Of a stretch of 53,593 bases of DNA, positions 16,213-53,593 are shown one piece after another. The notes under the pieces were generated by a model, which searched no databases, was not told the origin of the DNA, and saw nothing but the letters and a program-made list of their open reading frames with translations. Within the stretch, counting starts at the first letter, position 1. Every line of letters starts with the position of its first letter. A program made the translations under genes and the position numbers. The DNA is from a virus, in IMG/VR virus record IMGVR_UViG_3300023108_000037, positions 1 to 53,593 of that record. One strand, 5' to 3'.

Positions 16213-17627
16213 TAGAAGTCACCAAATGGATTAGTTTCACTGAAGTCTAAAATACTCAAACCCTCAGATTCAAATTCATCATTCTGATCAAATGGTGCGT
16301 CTTCATCATAATCGTTGAAAGAAGCAACTTTCCATCTAGCAGAAGATGCAGCTCCAATAATTGCCTCACCAACTTGGAACCTTCCACTATTTATCCCAAC
16401 CTTAAGAATCTTTGTATCAGCATTCCAATCTCTTACCTTAGCGGTTACAGAAGAAGCCTGTCCAACGATATTTTCGTTATACTGGAAGTTATTCTCTATC
16501 AAAGCTCCATCTTCACCAATTCTCAATACATTAATGGTGGGTGCTGCGGTATATCCAAATCCAGTATCAGAGAACAAAACATTTGTAAGAACTCCATCAA
16601 CAACAGTGGGTTCTACTCTTGCTTGAGAGATTCCTATACCTGACCCAATAGCAATAATTGGTGTGTTGAAATAGTTACTTCCACCATTAGTAACACGAAT
16701 GGAAGTAATACCAGTATTTGTAATAACAGAAGTGGCAGCTGCTCCAGATCCATATACACCTTGACCACCAGGTGAGGTATTCGCAATACTCGTGATCGTT
16801 ACAGTTGGTGGAACAGTATATCCAAATCCAGGATTCGATATCAGAATTCTGTCGATAGAATGAACACCTTTTCTTACTGTAGTGATAGCAACTGCCTCAG
16901 CAGTTGATCCTGGTAGAAGCGCAGGTGAAGTTTCAATAGTAACTGTTGGTACTTGAGTATATCCAGCACCATCATCAGTCAGAACGATTTTCTGTAGAAT
17001 ACCTGTTCTTCCAAAGTTATCAATTCTACAGGTAGCGGTTACACCTTGACCAACAAGAGTAAGTTCTGTGATATATCCGATTTCTTTAATTTCATCATCG
17101 ATAACGTCAATACTTGTATCGATGTCTTCACCTTCATACTGGAAGAGTTCACACTCTAATTTGTATGTGTAGTTTGTTCCAAGTTGGTAGAATGGTTGCT
17201 CATGTTCTACTCTTTTGATTTCAAATAATCTCTCACCAAGTGGAAAATAAACCAAGTCTCCCTCTCTTGGTCTGCTATCAATAAGCATCTGACTATCATC
17301 AACCTCTGCCATAAAAGGTTGAATAAATTCTTCAAATCTTTCTTTAGAAAGAGTCAAAGTAACTTCATTTTGAAGATTGATTCCAAACTTCGTCATGATG
17401 TCAGATCCAGGAGCGTATCCCTCAAAGTTTTCAAGGTACGCTTCAATAGCAAAGTTATCATCGAACTTGGAAGTCTCGATTTCTCTAATAATATTATCTT
17501 TGCCAAGAACTTTTCTAGGAATATAGTAAATCTCTATCCCATATGTCTTTAGATGTTCATTGATCAGATCTTGTAAAAGATACTGTTCGTTGGCAGAGCC
17601 TTGCAAAAAGAATGGATTAAGTGCCAT
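16212..17627 (-). CDS. gp14: Neck protein gp14, enlarged by GxGYT repeats
   Basis: 471 residues, far longer than the 256 of T4. It forms part of the collar between portal/gp13 and the tail. The N-terminal 170 residues are the gp14 core (FLQGSANEQYLLQDLINEHLKTYGIEIYYIPRK, then DFVYFPLGE-type strands around 125-150, here EGDLVYFPLGERLFEIKRVEHEQPFYQ). The extra length is due to an insert of about 200 residues with four repeats of a GxGYTxxPTVxI pattern: DDGAGYTQVPTVTI, NPGFGYTVPPTVTI, NGGSNYFNTPIIAI and DTGFGYTAAPTINV. The final 60 residues return to an acidic gp14-type tail (DENDEFESEGLSILDFSETNPFGDF). One-base overlaps join it to gp13 and gp15. Confidence 0.93.
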   Translation of the reverse strand: MALNPFFLQGSANEQYLLQDLINEHLKTYGIEIYYIPRKVLGKDNIIREIETSKFDDNFAIEAYLENFEGYAPGSDIMTKFGINLQNEVTLTLSKERFEEFIQPFMAEVDDSQMLIDSRPREGDLVYFPLGERLFEIKRVEHEQPFYQLGTNYTYKLECELFQYEGEDIDTSIDVIDDEIKEIGYITELTLVGQGVTATCRIDNFGRTGILQKIVLTDDGAGYTQVPTVTIETSPALLPGSTAEAVAITTVRKGVHSIDRILISNPGFGYTVPPTVTITSIANTSPGGQGVYGSGAAATSVITNTGITSIRVTNGGSNYFNTPIIAIGSGIGISQARVEPTVVDGVLTNVLFSDTGFGYTAAPTINVLRIGEDGALIENNFQYNENIVGQASSVTAKVRDWNADTKILKVGINSGRFQVGEAIIGAASSARWKVASFNDYDEDAPFDQNDEFESEGLSILDFSETNPFGDF

Positions 17628-18454
17628 TATCCGATAAGATCAAGGGGAGGAATTTCGTATTCTGAGAGCATTCTATTCTTGATGTCCAGAATTTCTCTTT
17701 CGGCATCGTCGTAGATTTCTCTACCATTAAGTTCAATACCACCAGGAAGTTTTGCTCCCTTGAACTTGATGAGGTTCTGACCCCACTGTCTCTTAATCAA
17801 AGCAGTTAGATATAACTTTACGAAAGAGTCGTTATATACGTTAGTAAAATCATCTGGATTAATAATTCTGTAGCAATCCAATACAATGTAATCACCAGAC
17901 ACAGCACTTGCCCAGTCGATGTCCATGTACAATCTATTTTGTCTCTTATTAAATCTTAATTGCTTATCAGTTGTCAGAAGGAAGTCAATATCTTCAAGAT
18001 AACTCTTTGTCATTGCATAGGAAAGAAGACCCTGATATCCAAGGTCAAATGCAATGTCATTCAAGAATAACTGATACTTGACACTGAACATTCCATTGGA
18101 AATAGAACTGGAGTCAAATTTAAATACTTTTTCGATTCCAATAATCGAATCTGGAACTTGAATATAGTTACCGTTTTCGTACCAAGTGAAATTAGTCGTT
18201 ACACCAACAGCAGTCTCGCTTGAAATACCTGTTCCACCAGGACCAGCTCTTCCACGGTCTTTGTCTTCTTCAGTAATTTGATACTTTAAGAAAGTTCTTA
18301 CAACACCATCAAAATGCCTTTCATGAAACAACTGAAGAGCGTCGTCTACGGCATCATCAATCTGTTCATCGGCAACGTTGATTTCCAGAACAGGGGCACC
18401 AAGTTTTCTAAGACAATAATCAATGAGTGATTGTCTACTATTCGGTTTTGCCAT
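17627..18454 (-). CDS. gp13: Neck protein gp13
   Basis: 275 residues (T4: 309). It binds the portal and closes the filled head. The start SRQSLIDYCLRKLGAPVLEINVADEQIDDAVDDALQLFHERHFDGV is the conserved gp13 opening, and the middle has DLGYQGLLSYAMTKSYLEDIDFLLTTDKQLRFNKRQNRLYMDIDW, which matches the family. The end, VYNDSFVKLYLTALIKRQWGQNLIKFKGAKLPGGIELNGREIYDDAEREI, is also typical. GGAGG lies about nine bases before the ATG and the start overlaps the stop of the fibre gene by one base. Confidence 0.95.
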   Translation of the reverse strand: MAKPNSRQSLIDYCLRKLGAPVLEINVADEQIDDAVDDALQLFHERHFDGVVRTFLKYQITEEDKDRGRAGPGGTGISSETAVGVTTNFTWYENGNYIQVPDSIIGIEKVFKFDSSSISNGMFSVKYQLFLNDIAFDLGYQGLLSYAMTKSYLEDIDFLLTTDKQLRFNKRQNRLYMDIDWASAVSGDYIVLDCYRIINPDDFTNVYNDSFVKLYLTALIKRQWGQNLIKFKGAKLPGGIELNGREIYDDAEREILDIKNRMLSEYEIPPLDLIG

Positions 18455-21400
18455 CAGAAGGAGCCTCCGTCAAATACGTCTGTCCACACTGGAACACCAG
18501 ATGCGTTAGTTGTGAGAAGATAATTAGAAGTTGTAATACCACTAGTTGTCGCACCACTGCTGACGATTAATCCGTCACCATCAAAGAATGCGATTCCATT
18601 AGGACCATTGTAATCACCAGAATCATAATAAATGCCATCCGTTGCGGAAAGGAATCCGACAATGTTGACGTGAGTGCTGATGGCAACATTGCTACCAATC
18701 TCAGAGTTTAGAGTCAGAGCACCCGTCTTGCTATTTATTGTGTTATTGCTAGCAGAACCAATCTCGATGTTAGCTGCTGTTGTAATACCAGAGACTTGTA
18801 ATGTGTCAGTCTCAGTATGACCTGTTACATCAATACCATCAGCAGTGGTTTCAAATGTCTTGGTGTTGTCGTAGTAGAGTTCTACCGCTCCATCTGTAAT
18901 GAATTTAGCTTTAGTTTCGGCACCATTTATATTGCCAATAATTACTTCACTATCTCCCCAGATGTTTAGATTTCCAGGTCCAATATCTTGAATAACAGAT
19001 CCAACTGCAGGATCTGAAGAATGATAAATCTGTAAATCTATATCATCACCAAAAGTTAATTTGAAATCATCAATAATTTCAACTGAATTTTGGAATGTAG
19101 AAGCAGCAGAAACAAGAACACCGCCAGTAATCGTTACACCATGAGTAGTGGTTTCAAATTTCTTGACGTTATCAAAGTAAAGATCTACTGAACTATTCTT
19201 GTTAAATTGTCCATATACTTCATTACCACCAACATCAGTAATCCTTACATCGGAATCTCCCTGAAGGAAAAGAACACCAGTTCCTTCATCTCTAATGACT
19301 GAGTGTGATCCATTATGGAAGATTTTTAAGTCATCAGAGTTACCAAAGTTCAGAACATCGTTGTCACCGAAGTAAACATTATCTTGGAATGTGGCAATAC
19401 CAGAGAACGTGAAGTTGGTAGCAAAACCAGAACTAATGTTGATGGTATCAAACTCACCGAGAGGAGAATCGACTTGAGTGAGAGTAGCAATTCCACTGGC
19501 ATTGATGTTTTCAACTAGAGTGTCACCGACAACATCCAGTCTAGATCTTGGTGAGGCTGTTCCAATTCCAAGGTTTTGGTTGTTATCCAACCGCATTCCC
19601 TCAGTGCCATCAGTATTGAATCTGATAGTTCCGTCAGAACCAGAATCATCAAGAGCGATCGAAGTATCACCTCTTTGGAAAGCATCAATCTGAACGACCT
19701 GTGCCGTCAAGATACCAACAATATTCACATCACCGATAATATTAACCTCACCAGAACCAGCTGGGTTGATGTTTAGATCACCAGAAAGTGTCTCAATGTT
19801 GTTTCCAGAAATCGTGACGTTTCCGAACTGACCACTAGTTGGTGTGATAACACTGCTGTTAGTGCCATCAGTAATCGTCAGGGAAGAAAGTGCTTGAAGA
19901 CTTGTTACCTGGTTGGTAAAGGATACTGTTCCGTTTTCTTGGTCAACGAAGAATGCTTCACCAACTCTGAAGTCACCTTTGTGGTCAATACTGACATAGG
20001 AAACTTCACCGTTGTTCAGTTCTGTAACTTCGTTTGCTTGAATAGCAAGGTTGGGATCGTTAGAGAAATCTCCACCAGAACCGATGAAGTTGAAATTAAC
20101 TGCGAAGAATCTCAGAGTAACACCGTCACCATCAGCGACGACACCCTTCTGACCATACTCAAGAGCACAACCAACAGAACGCATGTCAGCACCAAACTGA
20201 CTAAAGTCTGCCAATGTGAATTTGGTTGCGGTTCCGATTCCACCACCAGCTTGAGTAATGCGGATATCCTGATTGACGATGATGTCATCAGACGTAGTGG
20301 TTACACCAGCAGCACCATTGAAGTGAAGGAGAACAGAGGTATCTCTATCACCCAGAAGTTCTGCTACTGGAGCAGTAAAGTTTGATGTATACTTGCTGAC
20401 ATCTTTTTCAACTCTGAACTCATCAATGTATCCCTTATAAGCACCTGTAGCACCGTCATATTCGGCACCAAGGACCATTGGCTTGGTGCTTCCATAGTCA
20501 TTGCTATCCGAGTAAGTAGAACCCTCTTGTGTGCCGTTAATGAATAGTTTTGTAGATGTAGACTCTCTGGCAAGAGCAATGTGATAATAAGTTCCAGTGC
20601 TCAATCCAGTGTTACCAAGAATGGCAGTCGTAGCACCTACTTGTACACCGATACTAGCACCAACGGAAACGATGTTAAGAGCAGTATCAGATGCTGACCC
20701 ATTTCTTAAGTCAAAGATTGTTTTCTTACCAGTGATTTCATCTGGTCTAATGAAGAACTCAACGGTGAAGTCATTCGCTCCGAAACCGAATCCACCAGCA
20801 GTCTCAGCACTAATAGAATCATTTGTACCGTCAAGATACAGAGATGCTGTCCCAAACTTAGGGAAATTGGTGGAAAGTTGTGCATCACCATTGAAGGTAA
20901 CTGCCTGAGCAGTTCTATTTGGAAGAACTTCAAATCCCTCGCTCTTACCAGAAATTCTGAAATAAGTGGCATCGGCACTAGCAACAATACCAGTTGCCAG
21001 ACCAGTTACACCGTCAGTATCAAAATAGGTAACGGTGTTGCCGACTCCAACGTCTGTCGTAAGACCAGTTGCTCTCAGTCTTGTCTTACCATCAGAAGCG
21101 AGTCCAACAGTGCCAGACGTACCTTCAATACCAGTTGCAGCAAAGTAAGAGAAGCAGTTTAGGAACTCAACACGAGCTCCGTTTGTCATTTCAATACCCT
21201 TACTGTTTGGTACAATAAAAGTACACTCATTGAATAGGAAACCTGCCTCCAGAGAATCACTGGTTACTTCAGAACCATCAATATAAGCACCACCACCAGC
21301 AATGTAAGAGGATGGTGGGGAATCTGCTGAACTATAACCATATGGATCATCAGCAGTGGTGTTACTACCAAAGTTCAGAACGGTTACTCTCTGAACATAT

Positions 21401-44900: not shown

Positions 44901-46554
44901 CTAAAGACAATGGTGCTCCAAGACTGGAAGATGTGTTAATTCTTTTTCTTATATCGTATGCGTCTAGTGGGTTGAGACCAGAGTAATCACCAGCACCAAG
45001 TGTGACTGCGTTGTCAGTTAGGTTTACGTTAATTACTTCTAAATTGGAAGCGGCAATTGTTTGTGATGCTCTTTCCACAACATCAACAATATCACCCAAC
45101 TTCAAACTAGATCTATCGATTGTGGCATCAAGGTTAAAAGTAGATCCACTGAAAGAAGTGACAAAATATCTTGCGGAGGTATTGTAGATCCAAGAATTGT
45201 AGAAGATTTTCTCATAAGAGTCATCTTGTTGGTCATTACTAATAACTTGACCAAGATTTTTAACAGAGATCAATGCTCCTTCTACAGCAGAGAAAATATC
45301 TTCTGTTTGTACAAATTTGTTTAAAACACCAGTCAATACAAATCTTACTGGTCTTGTAAGATCATTCTCCTCAAAAGCATAAACTTCTAGAGATTGTGTA
45401 ATCTCAGTTCTTGGATTAATACTTTCAGTTAAACCTTCACAACCAATAAATTGTGTAATTGTTTTGTCTGTGTAGGTTACAACATCGTTGCCAACAGAAA
45501 ATGATCCAGATTGTGGAAATCCAATTGTAGAGTCTACGGTAATTACGCTAGATCCTGCGGAGTGATCTCCAATCGTAAAACTGCTTCCAGGAATAACAAA
45601 CTTACCTTCAATCAGACTCTCATCATCAAAACCGATGAAAAGTGAGATTTTATAATAGGTTTGAACACCGATATCGTCTGTGGTTCCTCTTGTGAAAATT
45701 TCAACTTCTGAAATTGGTCCACTGGCAGCACCAATGCCATTAGATAGTTGAGCATCTTGGAAAAGGGTTGTTCCAGAGATTAATGCTGGATTACCACTAA
45801 TAAGTTTTGCAACTACGACTTCTCTACGAACATAGTTTGCATATGATGGTTTGGAAAGAAACTGCTCAAGGTCAATTACTTTGGAATCAATGCCAAAGAG
45901 AACCTTCATCAGAATCTTGATAGATTCTTCCGTACCTTTACTTTGATATAAACTTCTAGACTCTTTAATGAAATTATTTACATCAAGATTATCCGCAAGT
46001 GGACTATTTTCTAATCCAGGTGTATATAATCTTTTGAGTTTATTGTAAAACTCCTTAAGAAATAGCGCACTGAGGTTCTGAACACTAGTTCCAGCAGAGT
46101 GAGATTCCGCAACCGTTTCGGAAAATACTAATTCCTCTGGATCGTTAGGTGCTCTATATGAGGTAATGCCAGAAAAACCACGAACAACACCAGTAAAGGA
46201 ATTTGTAGTTACTCCAGTATATGTGATAACCTCATTACCTAATTTGATTAATCCGTATTCTTGCGGAAAACCTTTGGTGTTGGTTACAAATATTTCCGTA
46301 TCTGTCGTTGAAATACCAACAGTTACCGTGGACATTCCAGAAATGACATCTGGAGTCAGTGTTTCTAGTCTGAGGTATTTGTCAATATTTTCACCGAGAT
46401 CTACTGGACCACCAGCAAATTCTTGCGATGTATAGTAGGTTTGTAAAAAATCCACTACAAGCGGATTTTCATCTTTAATAAACTCAGGGAGTTGACTGTT
46501 TACAACATCCTGAATTTTAACTCTGGTATCAAAGACAGAATTCGTGTTTATCAT
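32986..46554 (-). CDS. gp7: Giant gp7-like baseplate wedge protein
   Basis: 4,522 residues, more than four times T4 gp7 (1,032), in one unbroken frame. The first ~340 residues carry the gp7-type start: TRVKIQDVVNSQLPEFIKDENPLVVDFLQTYYTSQEF, then FLKEFYNKLKRLYTPG and SIKILMKVLFGIDSKVIDLEQFLSKPSYANYVRR. Later parts include GxGY-type repeats (about 44235-44290, 43645-43695, 43120-43165, 40110-40165, 35715-35890), a YHYH-type domain (about residues 1250-1370), many short Gly/Thr/Val-rich strands (VGIGTT type) and a propeller-like section near the C-terminus (about 4105-4360). It follows gp6 with a four-base overlap (ATGA), as gp7 does in T4. The gp7 name rests on order and the N-terminal part; the rest is extra. 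Confidence 0.82.
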   Translation of the reverse strand: MINTNSVFDTRVKIQDVVNSQLPEFIKDENPLVVDFLQTYYTSQEFAGGPVDLGENIDKYLRLETLTPDVISGMSTVTVGISTTDTEIFVTNTKGFPQEYGLIKLGNEVITYTGVTTNSFTGVVRGFSGITSYRAPNDPEELVFSETVAESHSAGTSVQNLSALFLKEFYNKLKRLYTPGLENSPLADNLDVNNFIKESRSLYQSKGTEESIKILMKVLFGIDSKVIDLEQFLSKPSYANYVRREVVVAKLISGNPALISGTTLFQDAQLSNGIGAASGPISEVEIFTRGTTDDIGVQTYYKISLFIGFDDESLIEGKFVIPGSSFTIGDHSAGSSVITVDSTIGFPQSGSFSVGNDVVTYTDKTITQFIGCEGLTESINPRTEITQSLEVYAFEENDLTRPVRFVLTGVLNKFVQTEDIFSAVEGALISVKNLGQVISNDQQDDSYEKIFYNSWIYNTSARYFVTSFSGSTFNLDATIDRSSLKLGDIVDVVERASQTIAASNLEVINVNLTDNAVTLGAGDYSGLNPLDAYDIRKRINTSSSLGAPLSLGDNVVSSDVLNTYIENNEFAYVASNSLPSYVIRPVTTEIQIATASTASGAIQNYDINELSYDTLSFPDVVPFFTGDEIVYSPASGIPAISGLSTNASYFVEVQPAPNNNRIKLSLSRSFLAAGSFVRFNPTDSGPHDFILAEQREGSIQPQKLLKKFPLSQNLRTGSKDSTPTGSTGMLINGVEISNYKVDESVFYGPLNRVNVFNGGNNYDVANTPKVVVGDSPVATGTTALVQPVVTGSFEDILVDPVNFDIEEVLSVEITGGNGDGATASATLASEFREVFFNANVLTEGGGVDTSDNTITFQTQHNFQTGDPIVYNALGNPALGIATNTDNDAVQGLTLQTGNIYFSKFINSRTIQVHNTKLDAQLGINTIGITTENNAGLMKFRTTDKKLKIDRLNVLNPGQGYSNRKLIVQSTGINTANDSVVFDNHNFTNGDFVEYEFFDTAISGLSTTVQYKVLNVSENEFRLVNAGVGGTDLSNFNRNKFVSLETVGVGSHIFKYPEIVVTIKAVTTQQEEGTFTATPIVRGPIVDAYLYEPGTDYGSEILNFERTPGITVVSGTGAEVRPVILNGRIDSVFVLSGGSGYTSPPELEVSSNPVGVATTGTGARLRALTNNVGVVTSVVVLSQGLNYDKDTTTIKANSVGSGAILNASVRRLGVNKFAKINDNGGEIVAPTPEKGLEYAAIGYGVTLRNAFGDNGAFHSPIIGWAYDGNPIYGSYGYNDPENIQSGTKRVGTGYTANINFISNRPNSTTFPLGFFVEDYRFTDVGDLDEFNGRFTITNEFPEGIYAYYATIDSNNNPQFPFFIGNSYRSKTILENVDPAFSIDQRFDFNSSDLIRNTFPQKIGERGASYDFAIEPYKVFSQDSVVDIVGSGSVESISVASTGNARYAVGDTINFGETDTGFGLAAEVSEIGGRSILSVASTETSYENAIVKWRDNKTVEVSISPNFDLNDNDVVQITGLSTFVQNLDGAHVIDTFVEPAKLIVGMGTTGASGMTTDITVTNVPISVGSSVKLSNETFGILNVFSGDGIIRVQRFPSETASGGVGHTAGETVTYPPQRFHISVETPYFESKEQDTVNFNPFEAVGIGITAGFTTSRSYRFNNRIETRTIPTQNIFLENHPFQTNQPITFSVGLGTTSIGVSTSPTGTVFYLPDLVYAVKNSKDTIGLATVLNGDQVFFRDVSYTNLYDYQFASRFEQITADVKKITATVSTGETHGLADNDIIKLSVKSGLSTGVGAASTVVFKIAEEKILVNPVAISSAGVNTSTNIITLSDHDYTTGVKVYYESSEVIGGLSTGSYYVFAIDKDNFRLTETRLDAISSPPTFVSLTSVGGTSQTLSLVNPPIEIFRNNDVVFNLEDPTLSGYNLQVYYDDEYQNPVVSTGKTTNFLVSTFGTNGTAGAGATIGFSTNFPSILYYNFDKGGFISTSDKDVNAYNQLKYSNSKFSGTYKVTGVTSTTFNVNLTQVPEKITYNLSESDSLEYTTTSTTATGSIANVKLVFGGLKYETVPSISSITSAEGVDSILRLNSSTIGKLEDVRLLTPGFSYPSDKTLTPTANVPNELSVTNFQTIDTIIVESGGKNYLTPPGLVLYDSSTGDVVTDFQGSTELSGSAVSPTTLVDGEETAGVRIDRNPVGLKDDVVYGAATVGNDNGISIVSVASSTDNQVTLSISTPILGFTTAPFRSGDKIFVEGIGLASTDGQGHNSSDYGYQYFTVSSYNASVNPNQLSYDLSSFVTTNTGIAVTNPGLFSNVVKEDDLPEFKVIKKNSLFEPGEILFLNGVEVIGSTNLTVSSFNALTGKLNINGTTPIQSGDTLTGAVSGAKCTISNISTKVGRFEIDSTSKFIKGWSDDIGKLSEDYQVTGDNDYYQRMSYSIQSEKAFNDIISFVNDNVHPAGYRNFADTQISPKGNVGLSFTTAQEDPFLVLDIYDGAKRVDTINDFDFALDVDATENTSKSIELLNVPITDFILNKSNRVVTIDDISSQFLNEDADELLEFKDVAIFGDGRKTNKFLTQIVDVTNDAEMSLKEIVLINNNEDTFLFEKVGLGDSIGELDGFFDEDTNQYSLRFTPVEKFNTDYEVKLLQTFFDNDISGLGSQSIGFVDVIAKTQNVSAGVGTTVLGFSTSVTDTFYTSVEIFDEFEQDVDYTELILTHDGTDTYLSELAAFNNRVGLNGLSGPFIGSFTSSIDSGVVSLIYNNNGSNEVRVRTQTIGIGTTAAGIGTYRFKFTGTEDGTERTGRFESDFAEVTGGTPTVITGINSITDGGMKATVRVSIGDTQAIHQVYILNDEKDRKNLYVLSYPFLSVNDNNGIGTFSADYSNDGVDLKFHPDYSGDILVQSFSEILNRDLDNNGDATGIGDLIYGNVNQNVSQSVYYGINQREILEFDAKFNGVDIFAKTFNPTQAGVVSTTTGIFTLDHFFSTAEPLDYVAGSNLIGVAGTGMVYYTGVGATERLPDTVYAIRDNQAQFRVAISSANALSGTAVTFAALGAGNKHVFAMQKRAEKALITLDGIVQSPLSKTPLSEQIMHDVGAGTTIIQLSGISSIRPADLLKVDNELMKVSVVGLGTTIAAGVGAIGTLPIVQVERGFVGSSVTAHSQFGAVSVFRGAFDIVDSKIHFTEAPMGAGREDLDSRGLTIPRSNFNGRVYLRKDYGTNLIFDDISDKFDGVTADFTLTSDGNNVTGIGSTGGNGLVFINGVFQAPSTPNNTENNFAITEVSGISSVIFTGITSVGGDQIVDPSDINLNQLPRGGVPISFGSTNGLGYAPLRKAVAEPTVTLGQITNIAGVPTTGVFSAISDAEYDNATGILTVTTSSDHELNTGDKIELKSLTFACPADGPFTNVYQFPSEIGVNFKISSFDYDNLTGIATVGLTSAHNFRVGRLVDLANIGMACSTPHTGITNSIFPDGSSGRKAVGVNTNRYPILGIGGTNTFVIDVGVSTITHVYAGAGATAGDAYEVKPYGPYYANRILSSNKFETQVGVVTFAHTYQSGGTFAKWTIADFGSGYSTVTAPAIAVTESGHTGTPAEITATVGAGGTLAFNIVAAGSGYTNPTINIQEPSYDNLVIEGVSRLATGATTITGIGMSVTIGVLGINTVYNSKPITNFVYDEILGLSTVSVAGHGFTTGDVIKVSNVEFEPYAPVGDAGDFFPGYSTSNYIVLSVIDDGNFTINIGAATTQVKYNYIGAGGVVRTGIGATLFEVQKFEITKPGYSFRRGDRVRVVGMTTDPLAGDDFQEFEIEVVDTFEDAFSSWQFGELDYIDSVKPFQDGTRSRFPLAYNDQLISFEVDKQDADSALIDLNSLLLVFINGIIQEPGEAYDFEGGTSITFVEPPAPEDNVSIFFYRGKVGVDSFLQATTETVKPGDDVQLRRSPRIELNEISRTFDNLSQETNRAIVGITSASEIETSLYRGDGVSTTEPKLLAWTKQKVDKVLGGEFVSKARDSIEAQIYPTAKLLKSVERDTTTFFVEDTSLFLGVDPSGDPDSNFGGLLVAGIPTSGIGSTTTVDTERVSGILDTNVTGYAGVVTGITTAYARLEEFYPFDAEKLIYRKGISLVDGSKNDLQAIFLKPDGTRMYVADQNTLTITEWQLATPFEIDTATVNNSNQLGISTQVQNIYDLYFRDDGTKLFTLGRGAQAPFVTQFNEFSLSSAWDLTSDTQAGVETSTTIANQTQNHRGLQVVDTGSAIITISPNSSALYKYDMASAFDITSVSFASSQALTDDDAATTDFVMSVAGDKMIVLGGDSEKIIEYDLSTPYDVTTVGVATTSTLSVGAGATVSMTAKPDGERAYVLNLSGVGSQYHFSIPPAGLGLTFELDLRDVPTLAERQQLVQGYRVLVFDTGVGTGLTTLVGSATSVGIGTTNIIGISTDKLDNIYEAYYTQFSGTVGILTCQVDPDTNTVGVATTGTYLEPAGKIVWGRISNITRSDDPIEIAVDGNSFEVGMTTYPTIQRRDAGLRSTGALSRK

Positions 46555-48458
46555 TTCCTACTTAATTGTCCGTTGGTATAACTGGATGCTACAGGGAACC
46601 CTACTCCTGAAATTTGTTCACCCGATGAAATGGTGTCCCTTGCCATATTTATGGTACTATTTGAGATATCCAGTTGCAAATACAGGTCTTTCAGACCAAT
46701 AACATCATTGGATTCTGGAACTGCCTGAATTTCAATAATTCCGTCAGATTTAACTGTTGATGTTATATTAACTGTGTTGATTAATATTTCACCTTTTACA
46801 TAATCAATGGTTCCAGCGGCAGGAACAACCACAATTGGACCAGCATCAGATTCTTTTACAATTGCAATAGCACCTTTTAGTTTATCTGCGTTTGGAACGT
46901 CAGTAAAGTACAAAAGATCGGAAGATCCTTGAACTGTGAATCCTGTACTTTTAATATTGAATCCTTCACTAACAACATGGAACTCATTTCCATAGCAAAG
47001 TTCATATTGCGTGAATGAATTAAGAATAGATCTCAAATTACGTCTAATAATCACTCTCGTGATGTTAGAAGTAATAGCTTCATTAGTATTATCAATAATT
47101 TTTACAGTTTTACTATATTTGAACCTACCACCAAATTTGTTTAAGTCAATAGAGTCTGCATAAGTGTTCAAACTCGATGTAACATCACTTTGAAGTTGAT
47201 TTACGTCAGAAACTTGAGCAGCATTGAAAAATACCGTGGATTGCAGTTCAATAAACAGAAGTTTCAGATCCTCAATTCTTTGATTAACACCAGCAACGGA
47301 AAAATCCTTCAATTTGCTCAAAATTTGACTTTTTGTGAAGTCAGATAAGAATGTTCCGTTTTTAGGTTTGATACTCAGTACAACAGTCCCAAATTCTGGG
47401 GGATCTAACTCTTCACCACCAACAACAGAGACAGATTCTGTATCTGGGTAAATTCTTTGGACAATAGCTTCATAATCTTTTGCAGTTACCGCTCTATATT
47501 GAGAAGAGTACAGTCTTGGTGCATAATATTTTACAGAGTCAATAGATTCAATATCAGAACCATTAACTGCAGACTGATTCGTCGTTACAGATACTGTATT
47601 CGTTGGTAAAAACGTAGCTCCAATGCTATTTGTTACTGTTCCAGTATATGAGAAGTTTGTAGGTCCATTTCCTGAAGACCCATCAGTTACAATATAAGAA
47701 ACTTCAATAATAGAACCATCTTCTAACTTTTTGCCAAAAATACCATCACCAAAAAGTAATTCATATCGTTCATCTGAAATTTCTTGAATAAGATAGATCT
47801 CAGAGATGGATGTAACGTCAATAATATTTTCTACTTGCTTATATTCACGACCAACGGTGTCCTGAGGACCTCTTACAGTCACTCTGATGGAACTTGTATC
47901 GATTCCTGGGTTATCTAAGATAAATCTCTGATTGACTGATGCATTGACCTGAAACTGCTTTGTAAGCAGTGTACCCTGGTAGACATCTATTGAACTAAAC
48001 GATGCCCTTCTAGGTCCATTTCCGTTGGTGTCAGCCCCTGTTAATACACTAGTTGTGGTGATGTCCTCAGGAATCGAAAATATGACTGAACTATTGTCTG
48101 CAGAACCAACAGCGACCAAACCTTTTTCAAGAGTTACAGTGGGACTAGTTCCTGTATACTCAATGTCAAAACTTACCTGTGCCTGTGCAGATTTTCTTGA
48201 TCTAGGAACATATCCAATGTTTCTAGCAAGAGAAACTACGTTTTCTCTCAACGTAGCGGAGTCAATGAACGACTCATTCACCACCATATTGGTGTTGAAC
48301 GCTGTAATGTAAGTATTATATGCTAAAGTGTCGATAAGAACAGCAAAGTTCGACCCTTCAAAGTCAAAATCGGTAAAATTCGAGTTCGCTCTCAAATAAG
48401 ACTTAATAGAAGCCTTAATTTGATCAAAATCTAAGTTTGTAAACTTGGTTAGTGGCAT
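46551..48458 (-). CDS. gp6: Baseplate wedge protein gp6
   Basis: 635 residues (T4: 660). It forms the inner ring of the baseplate, linking the wedges. The opening, LTKFTNLDFDQIKASIKSYLRANSNFTDFDFEGSNFAVLIDTLAYNTYITAFNTNMVVNESFIDSATLRENVVSLARNIGYVPRSRKSA, is diagnostic of gp6 / baseplate-J-like proteins. The middle has the EISDERYELLFGDGIFGKKLEDGS segment and the RAVTAKDYEAIVQRIYPDTESVSVVGGEELDPPEFGTVVLSIKP block, also typical. The ATG directly follows the gp25 stop with no gap and the end overlaps the gp7-like start. Confidence 0.96.
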   Translation of the reverse strand: MPLTKFTNLDFDQIKASIKSYLRANSNFTDFDFEGSNFAVLIDTLAYNTYITAFNTNMVVNESFIDSATLRENVVSLARNIGYVPRSRKSAQAQVSFDIEYTGTSPTVTLEKGLVAVGSADNSSVIFSIPEDITTTSVLTGADTNGNGPRRASFSSIDVYQGTLLTKQFQVNASVNQRFILDNPGIDTSSIRVTVRGPQDTVGREYKQVENIIDVTSISEIYLIQEISDERYELLFGDGIFGKKLEDGSIIEVSYIVTDGSSGNGPTNFSYTGTVTNSIGATFLPTNTVSVTTNQSAVNGSDIESIDSVKYYAPRLYSSQYRAVTAKDYEAIVQRIYPDTESVSVVGGEELDPPEFGTVVLSIKPKNGTFLSDFTKSQILSKLKDFSVAGVNQRIEDLKLLFIELQSTVFFNAAQVSDVNQLQSDVTSSLNTYADSIDLNKFGGRFKYSKTVKIIDNTNEAITSNITRVIIRRNLRSILNSFTQYELCYGNEFHVVSEGFNIKSTGFTVQGSSDLLYFTDVPNADKLKGAIAIVKESDAGPIVVVPAAGTIDYVKGEILINTVNITSTVKSDGIIEIQAVPESNDVIGLKDLYLQLDISNSTINMARDTISSGEQISGVGFPVASSYTNGQLSRK

Positions 48459-48860
48459 TTATCTCGTAACCTCAAGTAAGAAGGATACATTTTGCGGTGG
48501 TAAATCTTGTCCAACAATGTCAAAAAAGACATTTACTTCAAAACTATTGTCGTCTGGTCTTGGAAACACCTCAACATTCAAATTTGCGGCTCTTGCTTCA
48601 TAATTTAAGATGGTTTCTTCAATTTGATCTGCTATTACAGCCGCAGTACCATAATCACAAAACCCAAATAGCGTATCTCTAACGTCAGAACCCAAATCTG
48701 GGTTAAAAAATCGCTCAGTTGGAATAGTTTCTACTAAATTACGCACAGAGCGTGCGATTGCACGCTCATTTGTAAGCACAGGAAGGTCTTTTGTGATTGG
48801 GTGTGGTGCAAAAGACAAAGAAATGTCCTTAAATGCCCTAGATGTGCGATTTAGTGCCAT
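48459..48860 (-). CDS. gp25: Baseplate wedge protein gp25
   Basis: 133 residues (T4: 132). It belongs to the lysozyme-like gp25 family that seeds sheath polymerisation with gp6. Recognisable are FKDISLSFAPHPITKDLPVLTNERAIARSVRNLVETIPTERFFNPDLGSDVRDTLF and a final beta part with RAANLNVEVFPRPDDNSFEVNVFFDIVGQDLPPQNVSFLLEVTR. The EPR-like motif common in this family is represented by TERFFNP. A late-type octamer lies 29 bases upstream and no strong Shine-Dalgarno is seen. It heads the run gp25-gp6-gp7. Confidence 0.96.
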   Translation of the reverse strand: MALNRTSRAFKDISLSFAPHPITKDLPVLTNERAIARSVRNLVETIPTERFFNPDLGSDVRDTLFGFCDYGTAAVIADQIEETILNYEARAANLNVEVFPRPDDNSFEVNVFFDIVGQDLPPQNVSFLLEVTR

Positions 48861-51822: not shown

Positions 51823-52563
51823 TTACTGAAAGATTTCTTCCCACCAAAAGGTGCTTACGCCATATTCATAGTTAGTTCCAGTCGAAGCCACTGCTCTGTT
51901 CAGTCTATAAGTGTTGGCACTATTGCCATTGGCACCAAACATGATTGTATATGTTCTTTCATCGGTGCTATTTGGTTTGTCAACGTAAACAAAATTACTC
52001 ATTCTAGGAGTGCTAGAATCATCAGCATCGTAGAAATCACTAATGTAATGATTGTATTCTACAAGACCTTCTGCTGCATTCCGATTATATCCTTCATATC
52101 CAGTACGTCGGATAATGGTAGGAACCATATTACCACTCTCATCTTCAATTAACTCGGCAATCTTAAATCCAGTATTATGAGTATTTGGTTCACCAAATAT
52201 ATTCCAATGAATGACAATTAGACTATTTGTAAAATATGGAGTAATCGTTGCTCTTACAGGACTAATCTCTACAAAGTATTGTCCAAAAACGGTATCATCC
52301 GATGACCAGTTAACACCATTTGATGCTGCCGCTGTATAAGTGAAGTAACCATTTGTCATGCCATCTGCACGACCATAACCCCTTTGAACTACTTGACCTG
52401 TACGATAGTCAGATGCTTGAATACCAGCGTTAGGATCAGGTTTTCTTTGATATCTGGCTTCTACCTCATCCTTACTATAGACATCGGAGATTTGACCAGT
52501 TACTACTAGATTACCTTCGACCGTACTGAACTTACTATCTGTAATACCAGATTCTATTTTCAT
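51823..52563 (-). CDS. Small fibre-like structural protein
   Basis: 246 residues. The first 35 residues (FSTVEGNLVVTGQISDVYSKDEVEARYQRKPDPN) look like a short shaft and coiled segment, as in phage fibre ends. The rest is a beta-sandwich: GQVVQRGYGRADGMTNGYFTYT, FVEISPVRATITPYFTNSLIVIHWNIFGE and AYRL-type YRLNRAVASTGTNYEYGVSTFWWEEI. This last phrase is what I recall as the conserved end of many cyanophage virion or fibre proteins. It may form a receptor-binding or decoration domain; the exact role is inference. It overlaps the AbrB-like gene by four bases (ATGA). Confidence 0.72.
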   Translation of the reverse strand: MKIESGITDSKFSTVEGNLVVTGQISDVYSKDEVEARYQRKPDPNAGIQASDYRTGQVVQRGYGRADGMTNGYFTYTAAASNGVNWSSDDTVFGQYFVEISPVRATITPYFTNSLIVIHWNIFGEPNTHNTGFKIAELIEDESGNMVPTIIRRTGYEGYNRNAAEGLVEYNHYISDFYDADDSSTPRMSNFVYVDKPNSTDERTYTIMFGANGNSANTYRLNRAVASTGTNYEYGVSTFWWEEIFQ

Positions 52564-52733
52564 GACTTTCTCAGAATTAAGCAGTTGTCTTCTTCGTCAA
52601 TAATCCATTCTAAATCATCCCCTTCTTCCCATCCGAGATCTAAAATCATCCACTCGGGAATTACAATCATAGGATCCCCAGTTACAGGATCGACCTCTAC
52701 GGGTACAATTTCATGCCCATAATTTTTGTCCAT
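52560..52733 (-). CDS. Small AbrB/SpoVT-like protein
   Basis: 57 residues from the ATG at 52733, with GAGG seven bases upstream; a GTG at 52748 would add only five residues. The core, VDPVTGDPMIVIPEWMILDLGWEEGDDLEWIIDEEDNCLILRK, has the swapped-hairpin pattern of AbrB/SpoVT/MazE DNA-binding domains: a short strand, I.IP......LG...GD.L......D..I.L. Here it is strongly acidic in the last part, unlike typical DNA binders. It could be a regulator or an antitoxin-like protein, but no toxin gene is adjacent. It is the first gene of the long run after the leader. Confidence 0.68.
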   Translation of the reverse strand: MDKNYGHEIVPVEVDPVTGDPMIVIPEWMILDLGWEEGDDLEWIIDEEDNCLILRKS

Positions 52734-52908
52734 ATAGTTGATCCTCACACTGTTTTTATATATGGGAAAAAAATTTTGAAAACAAGTGAAATCGTTATAG
52801 CGATCTCGAATTGGGTCGTTTATAGCTTAGGAGGACCCATTAAATTATAAACCCCCATCGCAGGCACGAACGGCACAACGAAGGGGGCATAATACTGGCG
52901 AGACACTG

Positions 52909-52938: not shown

Positions 52939-52967
52939 ATTATAACATAAGGACTGCCAGTTGTCAA
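52939..52967 (-). promoter_or_regulatory. Perfect consensus sigma70 promoter TTGACA-N17-TATAAT
   Basis: The -35 TTGACA (52962-52967) and -10 TATAAT (52939-52944) both match consensus in full with a 17-base spacer. It lies between the 47-residue acidic gene and the AbrB-like gene. This points to strong host-polymerase transcription early in infection, in contrast to the late octamers elsewhere. Confidence 0.85.
52947..52958 (-). repeat. Motif GGCAGTCCTTAT, copy 2
   Basis: Sits inside the spacer of the perfect sigma70 promoter. It differs from copies 1 and 3 by one base (C for T at position 7). Confidence 0.65.
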
Positions 52968-52974
52968 CACTTAG

Positions 52975-53118
52975 TCACGCATAATACCTGACAGCTAACT
53001 GCTCATATTGGTCCTGCTGTGTATACTCATCGTCCTGCCAGTAGTCATCAACAACCTCACCCAAATCATAGGACTCGATGACACTCTCATAGTCGTCGTA
53101 AGTATACTCGTCCCCCAT
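52975..53118 (-). CDS. Small acidic Tyr-rich protein, 47 residues
   Basis: A short gene with ATG at 53118 and TGA at 52975. The protein has many Asp, Glu, Tyr and Gln (starts MGDEYTYDDYESVIESYDLG, ends QLAVRYYA). Eight of 47 residues are Tyr and sixteen are Asp or Glu. A good promoter lies upstream (TTGGCA-N18-TATAAT), but the Shine-Dalgarno is weak (AGGGGCAG). Function unknown. Small acidic early phage proteins often act on host proteins or mimic DNA; this is only a possibility. Codon continuity over 47 residues and the promoter are the support. Confidence 0.6.
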   Translation of the reverse strand: MGDEYTYDDYESVIESYDLGEVVDDYWQDDEYTQQDQYEQLAVRYYA

Positions 53119-53128
53119 AAGAACTGCC
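53117..53128 (-). repeat. Motif GGCAGTTCTTAT, copy 3
   Basis: Ends at the start codon of the 47-residue gene, so the same 12-mer overlaps an RBS here and a promoter spacer in copy 2. Confidence 0.65.
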
Positions 53129-53146
53129 CCTGAGTAACACTAACGT

Positions 53147-53176
53147 ATTATACCATATTTATCAGAAGACTGCCAA
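53147..53176 (-). promoter_or_regulatory. Sigma70 promoter TTGGCA-N18-TATAAT
   Basis: -10 TATAAT (53147-53152), -35 TTGGCA (53171-53176, five of six), spacer 18. It drives the 47-residue gene, 29 bases downstream of the -10. A late-like octamer GATAAATA (53156-53163) lies in the spacer, which would let the same site serve late transcription. A fourth, weaker GGCAGT copy overlaps the -35. Confidence 0.7.
53156..53163 (-). promoter_or_regulatory. Late-promoter-like octamer GATAAATA
   Basis: Seven of eight bases match TATAAATA, 38 bases upstream of the 47-residue gene and inside the spacer of the sigma70-type promoter. Confidence 0.45.
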
Positions 53177-53212
53177 ATTATCGGGGTTTTCTGATATTTC
53201 TGGTCCTGGGGG

Positions 53213-53241
53213 TTGACAACACTCGCTCTTCATAGTACACT
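53213..53241 (+). promoter_or_regulatory. Divergent plus-strand sigma70-type promoter TTGACA-N17-TACACT
   Basis: -35 TTGACA is perfect (53213-53218) and the -10 is TACACT (53236-53241, four of six) with a 17-base spacer. It points rightward, away from all the genes in the window, toward the window end. It is the only well-formed promoter seen on the plus strand. Confidence 0.6.
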
Positions 53242-53280
53242 CACTAAACTCACAACAACCCCGCACATTATCAAACATTA

Positions 53281-53452
53281 AAGTATATTTAATTAAACCT
53301 TTTTTAATAGTGGAAAAATATACCAAACCTGTTATTTATTTGTGTTTCTGAAGAGGTCAAATTACATCACATCCCTGTCTACAACTGGATGCGGAGTTTT
53401 ACATACTTTTTCCACAACTCCTGTGGAAAACTATCAATTAACCTGTGGAGAA
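53281..53452. other. Candidate replication origin: AT-rich DNA with four DnaA-box-like sites
   Basis: Four sites lie in 144 bases: AGTGGAAAA (53309-53317, one mismatch), TTTTCCACA (53408-53416), TGTGGAAAA (53422-53430) and TGTGGAGAA (53444-53452, one mismatch). TTTTCCACA is the form I recall for cyanobacterial DnaA boxes. The two perfect copies face each other around five bases. The AT-rich stretch at 53281-53310 would suit strand opening. No gene is seen across this stretch. Origin function is inference. Confidence 0.55.
53408..53430. repeat. Perfect 9-bp inverted repeat TTTTCCACA / TGTGGAAAA
   Basis: Two perfect arms are separated by ACTCC. No T run follows on either strand, so it is not a terminator. 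Each arm equals a cyanobacterial-type DnaA box. Confidence 0.85.
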
Positions 53453-53536
53453 AACATACACTTTTACCCCCAAATTACTTCGTTATTTCTCTAATTTTGT
53501 GCAAGTCCTCTGGGAATATCACGACCCGACATTGAC

Positions 53537-53557
53537 AGGACTTATGTAACAAGTCCT
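53537..53557. repeat. 7-bp inverted repeat AGGACTT / AAGTCCT with a nearby third copy
   Basis: AGGACTT (53537-53543) and AAGTCCT (53551-53557) flank seven bases. A further direct AAGTCCT copy lies near 53503-53509. The region 53460-53593 is otherwise without a supported gene. An ATG at 53587 and another at 53591 near the edge could belong to a plus-strand gene outside the window. Confidence 0.5.
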
Positions 53558-53593
53558 CCTGGACGGTTTCTGATATACAGAGAGAAATGTATG

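Follow-up and report, generated by a model that had tools for sequence, protein, structure and literature searches.

A cluster of DnaA boxes in a T4-like cyanophage

T4-type phages are the textbook example of DnaA-independent replication and, to our knowledge, origins of cyanomyoviruses have so far been predicted for Syn9 only. What is a cluster of cyanobacterial-type DnaA boxes doing in a non-coding stretch of such a virus? We have examined this question in a complete viral record of 53,593 bp (hereafter the window), the genes of which resemble those of T4-like cyanophages; the contig edge lies to the right of the cluster. Our analysis suggests that a virus group thought to be DnaA-independent borrows the DnaA of its host to begin the copying of its DNA. 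The sites are the following:

53408..53416, + strand: perfect DnaA box TTTTCCACA, left arm of the palindrome (sequence match)
53422..53430, - strand: perfect DnaA box TTTTCCACA, right arm of the palindrome, with a 5-bp spacer ACTCC between the arms
53444..53452, - strand: third box TTCTCCACA, one mismatch, 22 bp start to start from the second box
53309..53317, - strand: box TTTTCCACT, one mismatch, at the edge of the AT-rich patch (sequence match)
53267..53327, no strand: AT-rich patch, candidate DNA unwinding element, 83% AT, the least stable stretch of the window

The two arms make up the palindrome TTTTCCACAACTCCTGTGGAAAA (53408-53430), that is TTTTCCACA-ACTCC-TGTGGAAAA, and are the sole perfect TTTTCCACA 9-mers in the whole 53.6-kb window. 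Taking as a cluster several 9-mers of the TTWTNCACA or species-box type within about 100 bp, the window has two perfect boxes and a one-mismatch box in 45 bp. The preliminary description had claimed four boxes, two of them perfect and joined in a 23-base palindrome, in a non-coding patch beside a very AT-rich stretch, and all of this holds: the four are present over a span of 144 bp, every site falls inside a 356-bp gap between genes (53119-53474), and the least stable DNA of the window adjoins the one-mismatch box at 53309. Under a first-order Markov model, the window would be expected to have 1.2 perfect boxes; for pairs of them within 60 bp the expectation is 0.0014, and for inward perfect pairs with a spacer of 5 it is 6e-6. 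Since one-mismatch 9-mers elsewhere in the window are at chance level (22 observed versus 26 expected), it is the clustering and not the number of boxes that is unusual.

The patch at 53267-53327 is the most AT-rich 60 bp of the window and its minimum of DNA stability at the 40, 60 and 80 bp scales. An AT-rich candidate unwinding element adjoins the boxes of the window, as in origins; in S-RIM32 and P-SSM7 it is less pronounced, the DNA at the cluster being moderately unstable there. At the 40 bp scale, the DNA at the cluster is within the top 0.01% least stable in S-PM2 and within 0.5% in Syn9. The gap is delimited, and anchored to the baseplate genes, by the following genes:

52975..53118, - strand: 47-aa acidic ORF, left boundary of the gap, kept in relatives
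53475..53591, - strand: 3' part of a CDS that runs off the contig, closing the gap on the right and oriented like the baseplate genes
46554..48854, - strand: gp6 and gp25 of the baseplate (tblastn matches), which serve as syntenic anchor at about 5 kb from the boxes

The genes flanking the gap on both sides point leftward, to gp25/gp6. The cut CDS has a complete 84-aa homologue in one of the related contigs (L002, 5373-5627), and its proposed homology to T4-GC 637 was not supported. As to the patch being an RNA gene, Rfam gave no match to a structured RNA family and no tRNA was detected. In S-PM2 (AJ630128) several tRNAs are annotated between 17414 and 19333, two of them overlying the box cluster; ARAGORN found no tRNA in 17000-19700.

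Recurrence of the cluster in related phages

The palindrome TTTTCCACA-N5-TGTGGAAAA was found in 78 stretches of viral contigs, versus one for the reversed control. These stretches are mostly of low GC, have further boxes close by and, when a reference gene is in reach, place the palindrome upstream of T4-GC 102 - gp25 - gp6 - gp7. The gp6 of the phages that carry it has 32-82% identity to the references. We also scanned genome contigs for the palindrome, with no cyanobacterium among the matches listed.

The entire genomes of 23 named cyanomyoviruses were then searched for boxes. Paired perfect boxes, no more than 60 bp apart, were present in 12 of them (S-SM2, S-PM2, Syn9, Syn1, Syn19, Syn33, S-ShM2, S-SSM5, S-SM1, P-SSM7, S-RIM32 and S-CAM22), and in 12/12 such pairs were confined to the region 2-8 kb upstream of gp6, a figure that does not stand for 12 independent events because these phages, though of different genera, are related. 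The cluster is at 52.6 kb in Syn9, at 19.2 kb in S-PM2 and at 46.7 kb in Syn33. A thirteenth, S-SKS1, has TTATCCACA twice and TTTTCCACA once, spaced by 21 bp and some 9 kb upstream of gp6. The remaining 10 had no cluster: P-HM1, P-SSM4, S-RSM4, S-CRM01, P-SSM2, Sf-CH5, S-SRM01 and ACG-2014f, plus P-RSM4 and S-SSM7 with a single box. The last 894 bp of the window have no DNA similarity to the named phages, so that the comparison with them is one of protein synteny and pattern.

In order to have a sample independent of the boxes, 80 loci (L356-L435) were chosen through the flanking protein T4-GC 102. The 252 kb upstream of this gene contained 36 boxes (permuted 9-mers: mean 2, maximum 7 of 60), and the 514 kb downstream contained one (permuted 9-mers: mean 6.2). 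In the structural genes downstream of T4-GC 102 in these loci, TTTTCCACA looks depleted, as if stray boxes were avoided. A recognisable cluster was present in 7 of the 37 loci with at least 2.5 kb upstream (about 20%, in a sample skewed to one phage group), against 0 for the reversed control. The DnaA-box cluster is common, not universal, among the relatives. A universal T4-like feature is ruled out by the many relatives without it, and with 7/37 loci positive and 10/23 named phages lacking the cluster, it cannot be needed by all of them. Of the density and conservation proposed as checks in the preliminary description, the former showed no second cluster in the window and none elsewhere in the 23 named genomes. 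As to the latter, many distant relatives have the palindrome with the same spacing and at the same place, and the cluster is absent from many others.

The closest relatives show which parts are kept. In five contigs (L002, L004, L040, L069 and L078), retrieved by the palindrome itself, the AT patch, the box on its side and the palindrome are maintained while the 5-bp spacer changes. The AT-side box (53309 in the window) is a perfect TTTTCCACA in L004, L040, L069 and L078. On the side of the third box (53444 in the window) there is a third perfect box in L002 and there are TTTTCAACA boxes in L004. One locus retrieved through a protein, L360, has independently the same order of two boxes, AT-edge box, AT patch and promoter block.

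Nature of the boxes

The 9-mer TTTTCCACA is a cyanobacterial species DnaA box for which footprint and binding data exist (PMC4674748). Among the relatives, inward pairs of boxes peak at 13-14, 23-25, 34-36 and 55-57 bp start to start, and are helically phased (R=0.77 at 10.5-11 bp, n=261); direct pairs are phased as well. In the set unselected by box pattern, phasing was R=0.71 (n=24, p ~5e-6), although such p values are rough and overstate independence because the sequences are related. A helically phased array, as in origins, is found across the relatives, and binding to it would be cooperative. One-mismatch boxes within 60 bp of a perfect box carry their changes at positions 1, 2, 3 (mostly T to A), 5 and 6 (to A). 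Changes at T4, A7, C8 and A9 amounted to 4/75 near clusters versus about half of 764 distant one-mismatch 9-mers. With their flanks, the boxes have the form AG-TTTTCCACA-R. Judged on the boxes of the relatives, substitutions are confined to the positions that tolerate them (TTWTNCACA). Box identity, this tolerance and the helical phasing give good support to the cyanobacterial type that had been attributed to the boxes, and host DnaA would be the protein that binds them.

Promoter-like sites and accessory elements

Three promoter-like sites lie on the gene 6 side of the boxes:

53213..53241, + strand: TTGACA-17-TACACT, points away from gene 6, across the AT patch and into the boxes (counterpart in relatives)
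53147..53176, - strand: TTGGCA-18-TATAAT, reads toward the baseplate genes (sequence pattern)
52939..52967, - strand: perfect promoter-like TTGACA-17-TATAAT, toward the baseplate genes (sequence pattern)

The cluster had been described as placed between promoters facing opposite ways. This is wrong: the members of the divergent promoter-like pair are both on the baseplate side, and the one on the + strand (53213-53241) runs into the AT patch and the boxes. A block CTTAGCrcGC-N-TGTCAA is conserved on the gene 6 side of the box clusters. Within 240 bp on this side, TGTCAA was present in 52 of 102 non-redundant clusters, a frequency far above background and also above that of the opposite side. 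Read in reverse, the block gives TTGACA, and many phages have a hexamer of the -10 type 17 bp from it. We consider it a promoter-like site, predicted to read against the direction of the genes through the AT-rich DNA into the boxes, as at oriE. Since the -10 is poor in many phages, a pure DNA-binding role of the block is possible.

Extra box pairs or single boxes were observed 0.25-1 kb from the main cluster in S-RIM32 (61859), P-SSM7 (46602), S-ShM2 (53068), S-CAM22 (42899) and L360. In the last one, a second DnaA-box pair lies immediately before the counterpart of the window promoter at 52967-52939. By analogy, such boxes resemble two-part origins or DnaA-controlled promoters. Iteron-like tandem repeats with periods of 11, 22 or 33 bp accompany the boxes in L044 (10219-10458), in S-SKS1 (L508, 9125-9234), in L417 and in L021, and could bind a phage initiator. 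The window has no tandem repeats beside its boxes.

A probable origin and the alternatives

The clusters consist of 2-5 boxes on one face of the helix, usually by AT-rich DNA and often with a promoter-like block. We think that the cluster is probably a replication origin of T4-like cyanophages, bearing sites for the host DnaA and located at the oriE locus. This reading is favoured because of the AT-rich DNA, the promoter-like block, the iterons of some relatives and the synteny with T4 oriE. Early in infection, the host DnaA would bind the phased boxes cooperatively and help the AT-rich DNA to open. RNA made by the host RNA polymerase from the promoter-like block might contribute, possibly as a primer, although this step would be optional. 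The phage replisome gp41/61/43, which cyanomyoviruses encode, would load next, and recombination-dependent replication would come afterwards, as in T4. For Syn9, one theta origin has been predicted (PMC2984593). The GC skew was nearly monotone in the four genomes examined and gave no sign of an origin. DnaA is dispensable in Synechocystis (PMC4674748), which we count against the origin.

Other roles for the boxes have to be weighed. DnaA might be a transcription factor that uses these boxes to switch the early genes or the baseplate operon, with no origin function. The divergent promoter-like sites that adjoin the cluster would fit this role, as would the second cluster 0.25-1 kb away in several phages and the second pair of L360, directly before a perfect promoter. 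However, the main cluster is beyond the promoters, on the side distal to gene 6, and in the window it is by the least stable DNA; neither AT-rich DNA nor iterons nor a place at oriE would be needed for transcription control, and we regard this role as unlikely. Another possibility is that the boxes serve an initiator or regulator encoded by the phage, their likeness to the host box being convergent or ancestral. Some initiator does seem to act where there are iteron-like repeats, and T4 has RepEB at oriE, but the tolerated changes (A/T at position 3, and positions 5 and 6) and the TTATCCACA form of S-SKS1 match the DnaA consensus, and no DnaA-family protein was found in the window record, which makes a binder other than DnaA quite improbable.

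The boxes could also be a decoy that titrates the host DnaA off the chromosomal origin and halts host replication. They match the host consensus perfectly and the phage copy number climbs during infection, yet they are few per genome and confined to one region, and a decoy needs no AT-rich DNA, promoter block, phasing or synteny. With few boxes and origin-like neighbours, titration is a less likely explanation than an origin, and we rate it as very improbable. Finally, the 9-mer is itself AT-rich and its one-mismatch forms are at background in the window, as would be expected of a product of chance or composition, but the excess of the palindrome over its control, the syntenic place in all 12 positive named phages and the helical phasing reduce this explanation to a negligible one.

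Comparison with known origins

In T4, the annotation places oriE at 79355, 1.7 kb upstream of gene 6, and its primer is complementary to the transcript of gene 5. According to a review, it has 12-nt iterons that are kept in the syntenic regions of relatives (PMC3016281). The cyanophage clusters are likewise upstream of baseplate gene 6, have a promoter antisense to late genes (in their case a predicted promoter-like site) and, in some phages, tandem repeats. They differ in that the T4 site has no DnaA-box cluster, whereas evenly spaced 12-nt iterons are absent from the window. The cyanobacterial oriC, adjacent to dnaN, shares with the phage cluster the same TTTTCCACA 9-mer, a small number of boxes and an AT-rich stretch (PMC4674748), but the phage cluster is found in a lytic phage and has no dnaN neighbour. 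In the Pseudomonas phage PseuGes_254, an Ori-Finder-type prediction gave an AT-rich stretch with predicted DnaA boxes (PMC11512268), similar in composition and also in a lytic phage. That prediction comes from a single genome, while the cyanophage cluster has comparative evidence.

The plasmid origins P1 oriR, F, pSC101 and R6K gamma combine DnaA boxes and iterons. As in them, DnaA boxes and AT-rich DNA (with iterons in some relatives) share one short non-coding stretch here; unlike them, the phage element has no recognised Rep gene and is in a lytic T4-like phage. Tentatively, the locus homologous to T4 oriE may, in many lytic T4-like cyanophages, be a plasmid-like origin that depends on the host DnaA and is sometimes in two parts, with phased DnaA boxes, an unwinding element, iterons and an antisense primer promoter as its elements, a combined reading that comes close to an even chance without reaching it.

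If true, a site for the host DnaA that is conserved where T4 has oriE would give an exact address for the cyanomyovirus origins of abundant ocean viruses. Phage DNA synthesis would be linked to the cell cycle of the host, or to the state of its DnaA, and an origin of the T4 group would start by hijacking the initiator of the host chromosome. It would also account for a non-coding element that recurs among these phages and for which the phage records examined had no matching annotation. Our search found no relevant paper tying cyanophages to DnaA boxes, but it did not reach the genome papers of Syn9 and S-PM2, where there may be an earlier remark.

Genes next to the candidate origin

Two further genes of the window lie between the gap and the baseplate genes. 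A 62-aa AbrB/MazE-like protein (52560-52748, - strand; Pfam MazE score below the cut-off) has relatives at the equivalent place in Sf-CH5 and S-SKS1. The neighbouring 246-aa ORF (51823-52563, - strand), of unknown function and with no match among the named phages, has 59% identity to its counterpart in L002. In L359 and L361 it is apparently swapped for other ORFs, so that the locus adjoining the candidate origin seems variable.
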